Shown here in pieces: positions 37,232-42,978 of a DNA stretch of 60,751 nt. Source of the stretch: an uncultured Eubacteriales bacterium (GTDB lineage Bacteria; Bacillota; Clostridia; Oscillospirales; Oscillospiraceae); contig CASDSM010000012.1 of assembly GCA_949283375.1 (NCBI GenBank), forward strand, positions 108,827-169,577, in the 5' to 3' direction. The stretch's first letter is position 1, and every line of letters starts with the position of its first letter. The notes beneath the pieces are model-generated. The model saw only the letters and a list, made by a program, of their open reading frames with translations, was not told the origin of the DNA and ran no database searches. Position numbers and translations under genes: made by a program.

Positions 37232-38488
37232 TTGCAGGAAAAGCAGATCGCCGTCATCGGCGGCGGACCGGCCGGGATGATGGCGGCGCTCGCGGCGGCG
37301 CGTCAGGGCGCGCAGGTGACACTGATCGACCGCAACCGCACCCTGGGGCGCAAGCTGCGCATCACCGGCAAGGGCCGGTGCAACGTGGCCAACGACTGCA
37401 CAGCGGAGGAGGTCCTGCGCCACATCCCGCGCAACAGCCGCTTCCTCTACAGCGCGCTCAGCCAGTTCTCGCCGGAGGATGTCAGACAGTTTTTTGAACA
37501 GCTCGGTGTCCCGCTCAAGACAGAGCGGGGCAATCGCATGTTTCCGGTCTCCGACCACGCGCACGATGTGGCGGACGCCCTCGTCAAGGCCCTCCGGGAG
37601 GAGGGGGTGACGGTCCGCACCGGCCGTGTCGCGGCCCTGCTCACGGCGCACGGGGCGGTCTCCGGCCTCAAGCTGGAGAGCGGGGAGCGGCTCCGGGCGC
37701 AGGCGGCTGTGATCGCCACCGGCGGTCTCTCCTATCCGGCAACCGGCTCGACGGGGGACGGCTACCGCTTGGCGAAGATGGCGGGGCATACCATCGCAGA
37801 GCCGCGGGCCTCGCTGGTGCCGCTGGAGGCGGAGCACTGCTGCGCGGCCCTGCAGGGCCTGAGCCTGCGCAATGTCGCCATCTGCGTGCGCAATCAGGAG
37901 GGAAAGCCGCTCTACCGCGATTTCGGAGAGCTGCTGTTCACCCACTTCGGCCTCTCAGGCCCGCTGGTGCTCAGCGCGAGCGCCCATATGCGGGACTTTT
38001 CGCGGGAGCACTACCGGATCGAGATCGACCTTAAGCCTGCGCTGGATGAGAAGACGCTGGACGCCCGCCTGTTGCGCGACTTTCAGCAGAACAACAACCG
38101 CGGCTTCCAGAACAGCCTGCACGGCCTGCTGCCGCGCCTGCTGATTCCGGAGGTGGTGCGCCGCTCCGGCATCCCGCCGGAGACCAGAATTCACGACATC
38201 ACCCGCCAGCAGCGCCAGCAGCTCCTGCGGGTGCTCAAGTGTTTTACGGTGGAGATCACCGGGCCGCGCCCGGTGCGCGATGCCATTATCACCTCCGGCG
38301 GTGTGACCGTCTCCGAGGTGAATCCGGCCACGATGGCCTCCAAACGCCTGCCCGGCCTCTATTTTGCCGGCGAGGTGCTGGATGTGGACGGCTATACGGG
38401 CGGATTTAATCTACAGATCGCCTGGTCCACCGGCTATGCCGCCGGATGCTGGGCGGCCTGGGACCCTGTCCCGGGCCAGGAGGGATGA
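37232..38488 (+). CDS. HI0933-family NAD(P)/FAD-dependent oxidoreductase (BaiN-like)
   Basis: Flavoprotein, 418 aa. The FAD-binding Rossmann motif begins at once (IAVIGGGPAGMMAALAAAR), followed by the family motif GKGRCNVAND and VIATGGLSYPATGSTGDGY; the C-terminal ends with LPGLYFAGEVLDVDGYTGGFNLQ, characteristic of HI0933-type proteins. Start is TTG 37232 with GAGGGGG 8 nt upstream; earlier in-frame codons lie within the preceding gene. The cellular substrate is unknown; a bile-acid reductase role (BaiN) has been proposed for a relative but is not shown by this context. Confidence 0.88.
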   Translation: MQEKQIAVIGGGPAGMMAALAAARQGAQVTLIDRNRTLGRKLRITGKGRCNVANDCTAEEVLRHIPRNSRFLYSALSQFSPEDVRQFFEQLGVPLKTERGNRMFPVSDHAHDVADALVKALREEGVTVRTGRVAALLTAHGAVSGLKLESGERLRAQAAVIATGGLSYPATGSTGDGYRLAKMAGHTIAEPRASLVPLEAEHCCAALQGLSLRNVAICVRNQEGKPLYRDFGELLFTHFGLSGPLVLSASAHMRDFSREHYRIEIDLKPALDEKTLDARLLRDFQQNNNRGFQNSLHGLLPRLLIPEVVRRSGIPPETRIHDITRQQRQQLLRVLKCFTVEITGPRPVRDAIITSGGVTVSEVNPATMASKRLPGLYFAGEVLDVDGYTGGFNLQIAWSTGYAAGCWAAWDPVPGQEG

Positions 38489-38493
38489 ATCGA

Positions 38494-39168
38494 ATGTCAT
38501 TTGTCAGCATTGCCCTGGATGGTCCGTCCGGCGCGGGAAAGAGCACTCTGGCGCGCCGGCTGGCGGAGACGCTGGGCTATCTCTATGTCGATACCGGCGC
38601 GATCTACCGGACGGTGGGCCTCTGGGTGCGCCGGCAGAGCTGCGATCCGGGGGAGGAGGCGGCGGTCTCCGCACTGCTCGGACGACTTGAGATCCGGATG
38701 CAGGTGGAGCAGGACGGAGTGCAGCACATGTACCTGAATGGGGAAGATGTGACCGGCCAGATTCGGGAGCCGGAGATCTCCATGTATGCCTCGGCCGTCT
38801 CCGCGCTGCCGCCTGTGCGCGCCTTTCTGCTGGAGATGCAGCGCCAGCTCGCGCGCACCCACAGCGTTGTGATGGACGGTCGGGACATCGGCACGGTGGT
38901 CCTGCCGGACGCAACGGTGAAGATTTTCCTCACCGCTGTCCCGGAGGTGCGCGCCCGGCGCCGCTGGCTGGAGCTGCGTGAGCGGGGCAATACGGACTCC
39001 TATGAGCAGGTCCTGCAGGATGTCATCCGCCGCGACGAGCAGGACAGGAACCGGGCGATCGCCCCGCTGCGTCAGGCGGAGGACGCCGTACTGCTGGACA
39101 CCTCCGGGCTGGATCTGGAGGAGAGCAGCCGGGCGCTGCTGGAAATTGTGAAGGAGAAGATCGGATGA
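38494..39168 (+). CDS. cmk: Cytidylate kinase
   Basis: Phosphorylates CMP/dCMP. 224 aa. Walker [10 protein letters not shown], then YVDTGAIYRTV and the family's DGRDIGTVVLPDA. I chose ATG 38494, 9 nt after AGGAGGG; ATG 38485 directly abuts that site and is too close. Stop overlaps plsC as ATGA. cmk-plsC-ispH-rpsA is a conserved Clostridia arrangement. Confidence 0.96.
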   Translation: MSFVSIALDGPSGAGKSTLARRLAETLGYLYVDTGAIYRTVGLWVRRQSCDPGEEAAVSALLGRLEIRMQVEQDGVQHMYLNGEDVTGQIREPEISMYASAVSALPPVRAFLLEMQRQLARTHSVVMDGRDIGTVVLPDATVKIFLTAVPEVRARRRWLELRERGNTDSYEQVLQDVIRRDEQDRNRAIAPLRQAEDAVLLDTSGLDLEESSRALLEIVKEKIG

Positions 39169-39809
39169 GCACAGAAACGGGAGAGAAGAAGCAAAAATAT
39201 CCCTACCGGACGGCAAAACAGTGCCGTCCCTGGTATATCCTGATCTACAGCGTGATCTGGCTCTTCTACCGGGCCATCTTCTGGCTGCGCATCAAGGGGC
39301 GGGAGAACATTCCGGACGGCCCGGCAGTGATCTGTCCGCGGCACTGCACGGCTGCCGATCCCCCTATTGCCTGCTTTGGCCTGACGAAGAAGCACTCCGC
39401 CCGCATGATGGCAAAGCAGGAGCTGCTGGAGGTCCCGGTCATCGGCCAGGCGCTCTACCTGCTCGGCGCGTTCCCGGTCAACCGGGGCGCGAATGATATG
39501 GCCGCCATCAAGAGCGCGCTGCGCTGCCTGAAGGAGGGCAGCAAACTCCTCATGTTCCCGGAGGGGACCCGCGTCCGCGAGGGAGAGACGCCGGAGGCCA
39601 AGACGGGCGCCATCATGTTCGCCCTGCGCTCTGGTGCGCCCATCGTGCCGGTCTATCTGACCCGCGCCAAGCCCTTTCGCCCGATGACGATGGTCTTCGG
39701 CGAGCCGTACCACCCGCAGATCGCCGGCCGCCGCGCCACGCCGGAGGAATACCAGCGCCTGGCCGACGAGCTGCTGCAGAAGATCTACGCGCTGGAGGAC
39801 CGGGTATGA
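39165..39809 (+). CDS. plsC: 1-acyl-sn-glycerol-3-phosphate acyltransferase
   Basis: Makes phosphatidic acid from lysophosphatidic acid at the membrane. 214 aa. One N-terminal hydrophobic segment (WYILIYSVIWLFYRAIFW). Acyltransferase motifs: HCTAAD (the HX4D catalytic motif), FPVNRG and FPEGTRVREG. Overlaps cmk by 4 nt and the next gene by 4 nt, so it is tightly coupled. Confidence 0.94.
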   Translation: MSTETGEKKQKYPYRTAKQCRPWYILIYSVIWLFYRAIFWLRIKGRENIPDGPAVICPRHCTAADPPIACFGLTKKHSARMMAKQELLEVPVIGQALYLLGAFPVNRGANDMAAIKSALRCLKEGSKLLMFPEGTRVREGETPEAKTGAIMFALRSGAPIVPVYLTRAKPFRPMTMVFGEPYHPQIAGRRATPEEYQRLADELLQKIYALEDRV

Positions 39810-41740
39810 AGGTGACGCTGGCCAAGACGGCGGGCTTCTGCTACGGTGTCCGCCGCGCGGTGGAGCTCGCCGAGCAGACCGCCCAGTCCGGCCGCGCCTG
39901 CGTGATGCTCGGCTCGATCATCCACAACGACCATGTAGTTGAGCATCTGGCCCGCCAGGGGATGGGCCGCGTGGACCGGGTGGAGGACGTGCCGGAGGGC
40001 GCTGCGGTGCTGATCCGCTCCCACGGCGAGGCGAAGGAGGTCTATGACCAGCTCCAGGCGCGCGGAATTGAGATCATCGACGCCACCTGTCCCAGCGTGG
40101 CGCGCATTCACCATCTGGTGCAGGACGCTGAGGCGCGGGGCCGCCAGCCGGTCATCATCGGACTGCCCACCCACCCGGAGGTGATGGCGATCGCCGGGTG
40201 GTGCCGGTCCCCTGTGGTGCTCAGAGACTGCGATGCGCTGGCCGCATGGCTCGCGGAAGACGCCAAACGGTACTCTCTGCCGCTGACATTTGTCTTTCAG
40301 ACAACGTCAACGCGGGAGACGTGGAAAAATTGTGAAAAATTTGCAAAAAAAGAATGTACAAACGCAGAATTATTTGATACAATATGTAATGCTACCGCCC
40401 GCAGGCAGTCGGAAGCCCAGGAGTTGGCTGCCCAAAGCGACGTGATGGTTGTCATCGGTGACCACCAGAGTTCCAATACGCGCCATCTGGCAGAGCTGTG
40501 CCAGGCGTGCTGTGGCCAGGTTTACTGGATCGAGCAGGCCGATGAGCTTGAGCTGGAGCGGTGGGGGGAAGCGTCTTGTGTTGGAATCACCGCGGGGGCA
40601 TCTACGCCCGGGTGGATAATAAAGGAGGTAAAAACCAAAATGTCTAACGAAACCAAAATGGAGATCGAGGAGTCCTTCGCCGAGCTGCTGGAGAAGTCGA
40701 TCAAAACTTTAAATACAGGAGATAAGGTTGTTGGTACCGTAGTGCAGATCACGCCGACCGATATCCAGGTCGACCTGGGCACCAAGCATGCCGGCTATAT
40801 CTCCATGTCTGAGTTTTCCGACGACCCCAGCGTGAAGGCCGATGAGGTCCTGAAGCCCGGCGATCAGATCGAGGTCCTCGTCCTGCGCGTCAACGACGGT
40901 GAGGGTGTTGTCTCCCTGTCCAAGAAGCGCCTGGACGCCAACAAGAACTGGGAGGAGATCGAGGACGCCAAGGAGAACAAGACCGTCATCGAGGCGACCA
41001 TCCGCGAGGAGAACAAGGGCGGCGTCGTGGCCAACTACAAGGGCGTGCGCGTCTTTATCCCCGCCTCTCAGACCGGCCTGCGCCGCAACGAGCCGATGAC
41101 CGGCCTGGTGGGCGAGACGGTGAAGATGCACATCACCGAGGTCAACCGCAGCCGCCGCCGCGTGGTGGGCTCCATCCGCAGCGTCGCCAGCGAGGAGCGC
41201 GCGGCCCGCAGCAAGGCGATTTGGGACACCATCGAGGTGGGCAAGCACTATTCCGGCACCGTCAAGAGCCTGACCTCTTACGGCGCGTTCGTCGATATCG
41301 GCGGCGTGGACGGCATGGTGCATATCTCTGAGCTCTCCTGGAGCCGCATCAAGCATCCCTCTGAGGTCGTCTCCGTGGGCGATCCGGTGGATGTGTATGT
41401 CATCAAGTATGACCCGGAGAAGAAGAAGATCTCTCTGGGCATGAAGGACCCCAACGAGAATCCGTGGGAGACCTTCCTGAACCGTTACTCCGTCGGCGAT
41501 GTGGCGACCGTCAAGGTGGTCAAGCTGATGAGCTTCGGCGCCTTTGCCGAGGTCGTGCCTGGCGTGGACGGCCTGATCCACATCTCCCAGATCGCGGACC
41601 ACCGCGTGGAGAAGCCGGAGGACGAGCTGAAGGAAGGCGATATCGTCGATGTCAAGATCACCGACGTGAACCTGGAGACCCGCAAGGTGTCCCTCTCCCG
41701 CCGCGCTGCCATGCAGGGCGCTGCCGAGGACGAGGAGTAA
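39806..41740 (+). CDS. ispH-rpsA: Fusion of HMB-PP reductase IspH (LytB) and ribosomal protein S1
   Basis: 644 aa in one frame. Residues 1-~275 are IspH, the last enzyme of the MEP isoprenoid pathway: three Fe-S cysteines in AGFCYGVRRAV, DATCPSVA and DTICNATARRQ, plus a GASTPGWII end. Residues ~279-644 are S1 with four S1 RNA-binding repeats (GDKVVGTVVQI, TVIEATIREEN, HYSGTVKSLTSYGAF, ATVKVVKLMSFGAF). Such fusions are known in Clostridia. There is no stop at the junction (WIIKEVKTKMSNE), yet a full ribosome binding site and ATG are retained there, so S1 may also be made alone. A terminator follows. Confidence 0.95.
   Translation: MKVTLAKTAGFCYGVRRAVELAEQTAQSGRACVMLGSIIHNDHVVEHLARQGMGRVDRVEDVPEGAAVLIRSHGEAKEVYDQLQARGIEIIDATCPSVARIHHLVQDAEARGRQPVIIGLPTHPEVMAIAGWCRSPVVLRDCDALAAWLAEDAKRYSLPLTFVFQTTSTRETWKNCEKFAKKECTNAELFDTICNATARRQSEAQELAAQSDVMVVIGDHQSSNTRHLAELCQACCGQVYWIEQADELELERWGEASCVGITAGASTPGWIIKEVKTKMSNETKMEIEESFAELLEKSIKTLNTGDKVVGTVVQITPTDIQVDLGTKHAGYISMSEFSDDPSVKADEVLKPGDQIEVLVLRVNDGEGVVSLSKKRLDANKNWEEIEDAKENKTVIEATIREENKGGVVANYKGVRVFIPASQTGLRRNEPMTGLVGETVKMHITEVNRSRRRVVGSIRSVASEERAARSKAIWDTIEVGKHYSGTVKSLTSYGAFVDIGGVDGMVHISELSWSRIKHPSEVVSVGDPVDVYVIKYDPEKKKISLGMKDPNENPWETFLNRYSVGDVATVKVVKLMSFGAFAEVVPGVDGLIHISQIADHRVEKPEDELKEGDIVDVKITDVNLETRKVSLSRRAAMQGAAEDEE
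40355..40383 (+). promoter_or_regulatory. Candidate internal promoter within the IspH part
   Basis: TGTACA (40355-40360), 17-bp spacer, extended -10 TG-A-TACAAT (40375-40383), in a stretch (about 40318-40395) whose codons switch to AT-rich choices (AAA, TTT, TTA, ATA, GAT). It would yield an S1-only mRNA starting near 40390. Confidence 0.5.
40621..40629 (+). promoter_or_regulatory. Internal consensus ribosome binding site for S1
   Basis: AAAGGAGGT, complementary to the 16S rRNA 3' end, 10 nt before an in-frame ATG at 40640. It is read as Lys-Glu-Val in the fusion frame. Confidence 0.7.
40640..41740 (+). CDS. rpsA: Internally initiated 30S ribosomal protein S1 (same frame as the fusion)
   Basis: ATG 40640 would give a 366-aa four-repeat S1, the length of free-standing Clostridia S1, beginning MSNETKMEIEESF. 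It is supported by AAAGGAGGT at 40621-40629 and a candidate promoter 260 nt upstream. This entry is an alternative product of the ispH-rpsA gene and not a separate locus. Independent expression would make sense because S1 is needed in far larger amounts than IspH. It rests on sequence signals only. Confidence 0.5.
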   Translation: MSNETKMEIEESFAELLEKSIKTLNTGDKVVGTVVQITPTDIQVDLGTKHAGYISMSEFSDDPSVKADEVLKPGDQIEVLVLRVNDGEGVVSLSKKRLDANKNWEEIEDAKENKTVIEATIREENKGGVVANYKGVRVFIPASQTGLRRNEPMTGLVGETVKMHITEVNRSRRRVVGSIRSVASEERAARSKAIWDTIEVGKHYSGTVKSLTSYGAFVDIGGVDGMVHISELSWSRIKHPSEVVSVGDPVDVYVIKYDPEKKKISLGMKDPNENPWETFLNRYSVGDVATVKVVKLMSFGAFAEVVPGVDGLIHISQIADHRVEKPEDELKEGDIVDVKITDVNLETRKVSLSRRAAMQGAAEDEE

Positions 41741-41780
41741 TCCGGTATTACGAACAAACCCCTGCGCAAAGCAGGGCGGC

Positions 41781-41815
41781 AGGGGCGGTATAGCGGTGTC
41801 TATGCCGCCCCTTTT
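41781..41815 (+). terminator. Intrinsic terminator after ispH-rpsA
   Basis: A 13-bp stem from 41781-41793 (AGGGGCGGTATAG) with 41800-41812 (CTATGCCGCCCCT), one wobble, 6-nt loop, followed by TTTT. Only 26 nt separate it from the next ATG. Confidence 0.85.
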
Positions 41816-41841
41816 CGCGTTCTGAAAGGAAGGCCCATTCT

Positions 41842-42150
41842 ATGAAGATGGACAAACGGACCATGTGGCTCTGGCGTGGTATCTCCCTTTTCTGCATTTT
41901 GATGGCGATTGGGGCGTATCAGACTTCGGTGCTCTCCTGCATCCTGATGCTTGTGGTCGGCGTTTGCTGCCTGCCCGGCACACAGTTTATTCTCTCTCGC
42001 CACATGAGCACGAAATTCCGCATCATCGTGCTGGTGGTGCTGACGGTGCTGGCACTCACCATCAGCAATGCCGAACTGCAGGTGCAGGCGGAGGCAGAGG
42101 CCGGCGCGGGAGCATCTTCCGTGTCTGACCCGGCAGAAGAGAGCGCATAA
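41842..42150 (+). CDS. Small membrane protein of unknown function
   Basis: 102 aa, not recognised. It has about three hydrophobic segments (WLWRGISLFCILMAIGAY, LSCILMLVVGVCCLPG, FRIIVLVVLTVLALTI) and then a Glu/Ala-rich soluble tail of ~30 residues. AAAGGAAGG lies 8 nt before ATG 41842, and terminators flank it on both sides. There is no room for a promoter between the upstream terminator and the start, so expression seems to need read-through from ispH-rpsA. Coding is supported by a good ribosome binding site and membrane-protein composition. Confidence 0.7.
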   Translation: MKMDKRTMWLWRGISLFCILMAIGAYQTSVLSCILMLVVGVCCLPGTQFILSRHMSTKFRIIVLVVLTVLALTISNAELQVQAEAEAGAGASSVSDPAEESA

Positions 42151-42162
42151 CGCATCACTTGA

Positions 42163-42200
42163 GAGGGGAGAGGTTCCAGCCTCTCCCTTTCTTTTTTTTC
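42163..42200 (+). terminator. Intrinsic terminator before ispD
   Basis: Stem GGGGAGAGG (42165-42173) with CCTCTCCCT (42180-42188), including one G-T wobble, TTCCAG loop, followed by a long T-rich run (TTCTTTTTTTT). Confidence 0.85.
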
Positions 42201-42207
42201 GCTTCTG

Positions 42208-42216
42208 TGGTACACT
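42208..42216 (+). promoter_or_regulatory. Possible extended -10 promoter for ispD
   Basis: TG-G-TACACT at 42208-42216, just after the terminator T run; the -35 position (TTTCTT) is poor. A promoter is needed here because terminators precede the operon. Confidence 0.4.
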
Positions 42217-42243
42217 GGAAAAAACATTGTGAGGTGATGCGCG

Positions 42244-42978
42244 GTGAAACTGACCTTTTCCTGGAACCGGCCCAGGGCGGAGACGCAGCGCCCCTGGTGC
42301 TCCGTCATCGTTCCCGCCGCCGGTTCGGCGAGCCGTATGGAGGGAACGGACAAGATTCTGGCCCCGCTGGGGGACCGGCCCGTGCTGATGCACACGCTCC
42401 GGCGGCTGCAGGAATGCCCCTATGTGGATGAGATCGTGGTGGTCACCCGGGAGGACCTGATGGCGCCCATCGGCCGTGAGGTCCGCGCCTGGAAATGCAC
42501 CAAGGTCAGCCGCATCGTCCGGGGCGGCAGGAGCCGGGCAGAGTCGGTCTGGATCGGCCTCGGCAGGGTGGACGAGCGCGCCCGGCTCATCGGCATCCAC
42601 GACGGGGCGCGGCCTCTCGTAAGCCGGCAGGTCCTCGAGGAGGTGTTCCGCGCTGCGGCGAAGACGGGCGCGGCTGCCCCGGCGGTGCCGGTGAAGGACA
42701 CGATCAAGCGGGTGGACGGCCGCGGCTGCGTGGCGGAGACGGTGGAGCGCAGTGAGCTGCGCGCCGTGCAGACGCCGCAGGTGTTCGAGGCGGACCTGAT
42801 CCGCGCGGCGCTCCAGCAGGCGCGGGAGAATGAGCTGGAGATCACGGACGACTGCTCTGCCGTGGAGGCCCTCGGGATGAAGGTGCTCCTGACGAGTGGG
42901 TCGTATGAGAACATCAAGATCACCACGCCGGTCGATCTGATTTTGGGGGAGGCGATTTTGCGGTGTCAGTCGGAATAA
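42244..42978 (+). CDS. ispD: 2-C-methyl-D-erythritol 4-phosphate cytidylyltransferase
   Basis: Third step of the MEP isoprenoid pathway: CTP plus MEP gives CDP-ME. 244 aa, with an N-terminal extension of ~18 residues before the nucleotide-binding signature VIVPAAGSASRMEGTDKIL; IHDGARPLVS, PVKDTIKRVDGRG and AVQTPQVFEADLI are diagnostic. Start GTG 42244 follows GAGGTGA by 7 nt. It overlaps ispF by 16 nt; the two act on successive intermediates. Confidence 0.95.
   Translation: MKLTFSWNRPRAETQRPWCSVIVPAAGSASRMEGTDKILAPLGDRPVLMHTLRRLQECPYVDEIVVVTREDLMAPIGREVRAWKCTKVSRIVRGGRSRAESVWIGLGRVDERARLIGIHDGARPLVSRQVLEEVFRAAAKTGAAAPAVPVKDTIKRVDGRGCVAETVERSELRAVQTPQVFEADLIRAALQQARENELEITDDCSAVEALGMKVLLTSGSYENIKITTPVDLILGEAILRCQSE

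Follow-up and report, generated by a model that had tools for sequence, protein, structure and literature searches.

The open reading frame at 39806-41740 (+ strand) of the window, by which the whole analysed stretch of 60,751 nucleotides is meant, encodes an IspH-S1 fusion of 644 aa. Based on comparative sequence data, the gene very probably gives rise to a free S1 as well as to the fusion, and we assign a probability of roughly 0.87 to the reading that ispH harbours a nested S1 gene with a promoter and a start of its own, which would give free S1 in addition to the fusion. The preliminary description had proposed such a pair of products from one gene, and the proposal is supported by conservation, by overlapping relatives and by codon usage.

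According to the proposed mechanism, the open reading frame would comprise two genes in one frame, the S1 gene having its own 5' signals nested in ispH (Table 1). An extended -10 promoter of the sigma-A type, together with the A-rich tract before it (40322-40383), would give rise to a short RNA from about 40390, on which ribosomes would initiate at AAAGGAGGT-ATG 40640, between two hairpins, to produce a free S1 of 366 aa. Initiation at 40640 would take place on the short RNA and also on the long operon RNA, and ribosomes starting at 39806 would read through to the 644-aa fusion. We infer that the promoter is active and that free S1 is produced in larger amounts than the fusion. The hairpins and an AU-rich block (block 3) would presumably tune the translation of S1, and stoichiometry may be the motive for a separate S1.

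Table 1. Positions of observed and predicted features of the IspH-S1 locus within the window.
Feature	Position	Strand	Remark
IspH (LytB) part	39806..40639	+	codons 1-278; Pfam LYTB 3-279, NF000907
A-rich tract upstream of -35	40322..40352	+	codon conservation in the order
-35-like TGTACA	40355..40360	+	TGT184 69/69 vs 27.5 expected, ACA185 75/75 vs 11.8 (order)
Extended -10 TGATACAAT	40375..40383	+	over Phe-Asp-Thr-Ile codons
Predicted RNA start	40390	+	about 7 nt after -10; inferred from promoter position
Hairpin H1 (predicted)	40588..40614	+	just upstream of the ribosome-binding site
Ribosome-binding site AAAGGAGGT	40621..40629	+	within Lys-Glu-Val codons of IspH
ATG, proposed start of free S1	40640..40642	+	same place in ten overlapping out-of-frame relatives
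S1 part, proposed free S1	40640..41740	+	366 codons + stop; four S1 stretches
Hairpin H2 (predicted)	40663..40702	+	within the first S1 codons
Block 3, AU-rich codons under synonymous constraint	40697..40720	+	overlaps the 3' arm of H2

The fusion gene and the sample of relatives

The fusion protein matched the bifunctional IspH/S1 model NF000907 of NCBIfam over residues 1-638 with 708.3 bits (cut-off 624), and a check of the sequence showed no stop between ispH and S1, as had been described before. Its nearest named relative is that of Candidatus Onthomonas avicola (94%, L010). The pathway of IspH is essential. Upstream on the same strand lie two open reading frames, 38446-39168 and 39165-39809, which, judged by their motifs, are probably a cytidylate kinase and an acyltransferase.

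Related genes were collected from overlapping sets of genomes of the genus (31), family (150), class (291) and phylum (299), together with 40 and 44 genomes chosen for IspH and a number of named loci. Each genome search comprised the best matches only, at most 30 loci, and the sample is biased towards relatives of the window; manual selection of further stretches widened the coverage of families. To the codon alignment, 204 genomes contributed one fusion each (28 from the genus, 39 from the family, 10 from the order, 80 from the class and 47 from the phylum). Together with four fusions missed by the motif filter and added by hand (L185, L193, L243 and L250), this amounts to 208 fusions, all of which (208/208) showed the S1 match in the same frame.

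A duplicate genome (L267) and L204 were left out of the counts. In L204 (G445, family f77), IspH is joined in-frame to another domain, the tail has no S1 match, and S1 follows downstream in a separate frame; the joined IspH of L204 lacks the Shine-Dalgarno sequence. Judged by a motif, the tail presumably resembles a cytidylate kinase. L204 is still contained in the class rows of the codon-expectation and re-coding tests, while the counts for codon E274 exclude it. Two matches of the family, in G145 (L083) and in G097, showed one internal stop each (TAG and TGA), and L083 also has unread bases; these stops may be assembly faults.

Ribosome-binding site and start of S1

The ribosome-binding site AAAGGAGGT and the in-frame ATG at 40640 were found as noted in the preliminary description, and their conservation in related fusions goes beyond the needs of residues and codon usage. 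GGAGG, followed 8-11 nt on by an in-frame ATG (GTG three times), was present within the last conserved codons of IspH in 206 of the 208 sampled fusions of the phylum. A script found 202 of these, and the sites of L046, L053, L061 and L070 were identified separately. The two exceptions comprise GAGAGG (L252) and GAGGGGG (L185), both with ATG. Codon E274 was GAG in all 80 class genes outside the order, where about 28 were expected from the usage of each gene, and in 47/47 of the remaining phylum genes, with an expectation of 16.8.

This conservation could be attributed to the needs of the protein alone, the codons serving the structure of IspH, its co-translational folding or codon bias, with an accidental Shine-Dalgarno sequence and the fusion as the sole product. 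Lys-Glu-Val is easily coded as AAGGAGGT in GC-rich genes, and the FDTIC motif covered by the -10 region is conserved protein. Such an accident is seen in L216, an ispH gene with no nearby S1, which comprises GGAGG with TTG (Leu) 11 nt on; hence GC-rich genes can acquire the motif by chance. However, AAG GAG was retained in AT-rich genes, even where the gene otherwise favours GAA. Furthermore, the Shine-Dalgarno core stayed unchanged where AAG was replaced, be it by AGG (L142, L158), by GGG (L146) or, with Gln instead of Lys, by CAG (L103, L107, L109), in which AGGAGG can still be read. Among 17 ispH genes without an S1 hit in the fetched stretch, 16 have no GGAGG at the place of the fusion start, and all 17 encode Leu or Ile at the start position, compared to Met, or Val by GTG, in the fusions. 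Finally, relatives with out-of-frame overlaps need the start. An explanation by the protein alone is therefore regarded as very improbable.

Overlapping and unfused relatives

In ten genomes, ispH and S1 overlap in different frames, namely in eight of family f31 (L145, L151, L153, L155, L159, L161, L166 and L170) and in L175 and L182. In each of them, the ATG of S1 (GTG in L175 and L182) lies 9-10 nt after a GGAGG inside ispH. Since read-through from ispH into S1 is impossible in these genes, the ATG or GTG after GGAGG is the real start of S1. Another member of f31, L138, is fused, so that the frame differs within one family. L194 overlaps as well, with GTG 8 nt after GGAGG. In L177, S1 follows close behind ispH without GGAGG, and in L169 a separate S1 with its own site starts with ATG 32 nt after the stop of ispH.

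Among the linked but unfused ispH and S1 genes, none has S1 in the frame of ispH. The codons 276-278 directly before the ATG of S1 are variable, with 15-16 different residues each, and in 167/204 genes a codon one base from a stop was present there. Given these near-stop codons, it is suggested, though only suggested since the fusions were collected as open frames, that the fusion itself is also kept.

The putative promoter within ispH

The region 40324-40396 comprises 26% GC, compared to 62% for ispH and 61% for S1, which agrees with the AT-rich island described before. The 60-mer at 40325 (22% GC) ties for the lowest value in the window, since only two of 60,691 60-mers are that low. TGTACA and, after a spacer of 17 nt, TACAAT (40378-40383) are present exactly as noted, and a TG at 40375-40376 extends the -10 region. 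The A-rich tract may be called UP-element-like by analogy. A generic promoter scan of 39000-42500 found one site compared to 0.8 expected in shuffles and was not significant. Compared to 200 synonymous re-codings with its own codon usage, the promoter of the window's own copy (L001) reached p = 0.005; the re-codings cover the 138 codons that precede the start of S1, scored with an unfitted matrix. The putative promoter is strongly supported by its conservation, rather than by the match in a single sequence.

In the alignment, TGnTACAAT at the FDTIC codons, whose Cys we take to be a cluster ligand, was found in all genus (28) and family (39) genes, in 9 of the 10 order genes, in 43/80 class genes and in 1/47 phylum genes. 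The whole order thus amounts to 76/77, and with the four added fusions the rest of the class amounts to 45/82 and the other phylum genes to 1/49. A lack of conservation of the island among related fusions had been named as a result that would refute the proposal; it was not observed, as the extended -10 is present in 76 of the 77 order genes and the ribosome-binding site in 206 of the 208 fusions. The codons in the order were conserved more strongly than the residues and the usage of each gene would demand, in accordance with the earlier claim that conserved IspH residues explain the AT bias only in part: observed and expected counts were 70/70 and 7.1 for ATA193, 76/77 and 12.2 for ACA192, and 77/77 and 28.4 for GAT191. 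In the A-rich tract, the values were 73/73 and 21.1 for AAA181, 67/71 and 21.0 for AAA182, and 51/54 and 6.7 for GCA180. The codons GAY ACN ATH (Asp-Thr-Ile) offer no better -10 than TACAAT.

At 69 order, family and genus sites, TGTACA lies 17 nt upstream of the -10. Other hexamers occupy this place in the class, for example TGCAAA and TTTGAC, so that the -10 is constant while the hexamer varies by clade. In a FastTree phylogeny of 135 fusions, from which the signal columns had been removed, 65 of 68 promoter bearers fell into one clade of 73 rows with a support of 99, and the promoter label required 12 changes compared to 45 in shuffles. The candidate ribosome-binding site is thus phylum-wide, and the putative promoter is mainly that of one clade. 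The promoter surpassed the re-codings (p <= 0.05) in 55/67 genus and family, 6/10 order, 27/81 class and 5/47 phylum genes, a test that is weak per gene where the genes are AT-rich. Since such a promoter is missing from roughly half of the class and from almost all other phylum genes, it is not required wherever the fusion exists. For one relative in the Clostridia, extended -10 sites upstream of 245 mapped starts are described in the parts of PMC7438776 used here.

Promoter-like sites elsewhere in late ispH were observed in families f54 (L164, L168) and f33 (L255), with p values of 0.000-0.01, and in f74 (L158) with p = 0.095. In some clades, such a site may have taken the place of the internal promoter.

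Internal translation alone would be another explanation, in which free S1 comes from the long operon RNA and the island is kept for a different purpose, such as RNA stability, pausing or another DNA-binding protein. The differing spread of ribosome-binding site and promoter, the result of the generic scan and the small excess over re-codings in AT-rich genes are in line with it. On the other hand, the conserved bases match promoter elements (TG and TACAAT, the hexamer 17 nt further upstream, the A-rich tract), and a -35-like hexamer that changes between clades next to a constant -10 also argues against it, which makes this explanation unlikely. Alternatively, the promoter could drive an RNA that is not the messenger of S1, such as a small regulatory RNA derived from the 3' portion of ispH. 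No Rfam family matched 39000-42500 at E <= 1, which leaves room for an undescribed RNA. Against such an RNA, a terminator-like scan of 39000-42500 revealed no + strand site from the -10 to 42163, and the S1 start region and block 3 are under constraint in this clade as well; this alternative is considered extremely doubtful.

Synonymous constraint

For the fusion gene, a map of synonymous constraint was calculated, in which relatedness inflates all columns alike, so that the ranks and not the z values are the evidence. The two serine classes (AGY and TCN) were handled separately, and an apparent codon conservation at the serine columns 222, 629 and 631 is explained by their inheritance. The top windows of seven codons in the order were 40697-40717 (mean z of 14.9), 40373-40393 (14.2), 40340-40360 (13.7) and 40604-40624 (12.0), compared to a median of 3.4; the peaks correspond to the promoter, the ribosome-binding site and block 3. 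In the class genes with TACAAT (n=51), the ranking was 40373-40393, 40613-40633, 40340-40360 and 40319-40339, followed by block 3. In the class genes without TACAAT (n=29) and in the rest of the phylum (n=47), 40622-40642 ranked first, and the promoter block was absent from the top eight windows.

Block 3 thus shows the strongest synonymous constraint of the gene within the order. Its codon TTA302 was found in 51/67 order genes (3.1 expected), and TTTAAATACAGG in block 3 occurs once in its own genome. The heptamer T TTA AAT is present in the right frame in 47/77 order genes, 13/51 class genes with TACAAT, 2/29 class genes without it and 1/47 phylum genes. A programmed -1 frameshift at this position was rejected, since the heptamer is less common outside the order and lies at varying distances from the -1 stop; TTG at the TTA codon of the heptamer in 11/77 order genes also argues against it. 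The predicted pairs with a mean probability >0.35 included none between block 3 and the Shine-Dalgarno region. The promoter is present in 22 of the 24 rows with block 3, and tree-independent pairs gave no support for a link between the two.

Predicted RNA structure

The hairpins H1 and H2 are predicted to flank the start of S1. For H1, 96% of the cells were paired in 49 distinct family sequences, compared to a maximum of 93% in 500 within-column shuffles of synonymous codons. The pair 40591-40611 comprised C-G 21, U-G 19, G-C 4 and U-A 2 times, the rest being unpaired, and the pair 40597-40606 comprised C-G 20, U-A 12 and U-G 5 times with at least 11 unpaired. H2 paired in 96% (shuffle maximum 95.5%) with few pair changes and consequently little covariation. 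Compared to synonymous re-codings, the energy z was -2.0 for H1, +1.4 for the start region, -1.7 for H2 and +1.45 for block 3, while two control stretches showed -0.05 and -0.79 and the whole region +0.24. The z of the H1 region was -1.9 in the family, -1.5 in the order, -1.0 and -0.9 in the class and -0.45 in the phylum; the ten overlapping genes showed -2.0 and 16 other unfused ispH genes 0.0. The exact H1 pairs of the family are mostly lost outside of it, 40591-40611 being found in 1/10 order and 13/51 class genes.

A more far-reaching reading is possible, and we put it forward tentatively, as we incline slightly against it: the 'fusion' would mainly be a nested S1 gene with promoter and A-rich tract, 5' leader, a module of hairpin, Shine-Dalgarno sequence and hairpin, and an AU-rich block written in synonymous positions of IspH and of the early S1 codons. 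S1 would be tuned there, perhaps by S1 itself, and the full-length fusion would be a minor product that is kept separately.

Codon usage of the two halves

With the genes surrounding ribosomal protein L4 as the reference, codon adaptation was calculated for 18 genomes, of which four were dropped because the L4 motif was not found. In 14/14 usable genomes the S1 half showed a higher value than the IspH half, with a mean difference of 0.19 (Wilcoxon p 0.00012) and values of 0.81 and 0.56 in the window's own genome. A higher codon bias of the S1 half is not predicted by one product at one level. It fits a higher expression of S1, although regional codon bias may have other causes.

Relation to known systems

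The same IspH-RPS1 fusion protein was reported from many Firmicutes (Rao et al. 2015, PMC4746011). As far as the main text of that paper goes, the product is treated as a fusion, and the terms Shine, promoter, internal and start codon do not appear. Among the open-licence papers searched, the fusion was treated in PMC4746011 only, and no earlier description of a nested S1 gene was found. The sections of PMC6203783 and PMC7438776 considered here do not mention an internal start at the fusion gene, and those of PMC10663253 do not mention the IspH-S1 fusion. Genes within genes are known as a kind, and so is the fusion protein.

In the rpn genes-within-genes, as outlined in the consulted parts of PMC10327210, an internal promoter and an in-frame start give a separate, more abundant C-terminal protein. 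The present locus resembles them by its conserved internal start with a Shine-Dalgarno sequence and, as far as the sequence can tell, by a conserved internal promoter. In contrast, the short rpn protein is an antitoxin of the long one, while here it would be S1, with signals lying within an enzyme and a start kept phylum-wide.

For the start of enterobacterial rpsA, the relevant passages of PMC10931766 describe a conserved fold with AU-rich single-stranded stretches and no canonical Shine-Dalgarno sequence. At the S1 start described here, hairpins and AU-rich stretches are predicted for the family, the exact H1 pairs being lost beyond it, and the strong, conserved and canonical AAAGGAGGT differs from the enterobacterial start. 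According to the same passages, a canonical Shine-Dalgarno sequence abolishes the autogenous repression by S1 in enterobacteria, and S1 is absent from Bacillus ribosomes; both argue against a simple autoregulation here.

Significance

So far, IspH-S1 has been taken to connect isoprenoid synthesis physically with the ribosome. Should S1 also, or perhaps mostly, be made from a nested promoter and start, conclusions based on the fusion and annotations as one protein would need revising in a large part of the Clostridia. The locus would then be a clear natural example of an enzyme gene whose synonymous codons contain promoter and ribosome-binding signals, here over a conserved Cys motif, and the overlapping out-of-frame relatives provide built-in controls.
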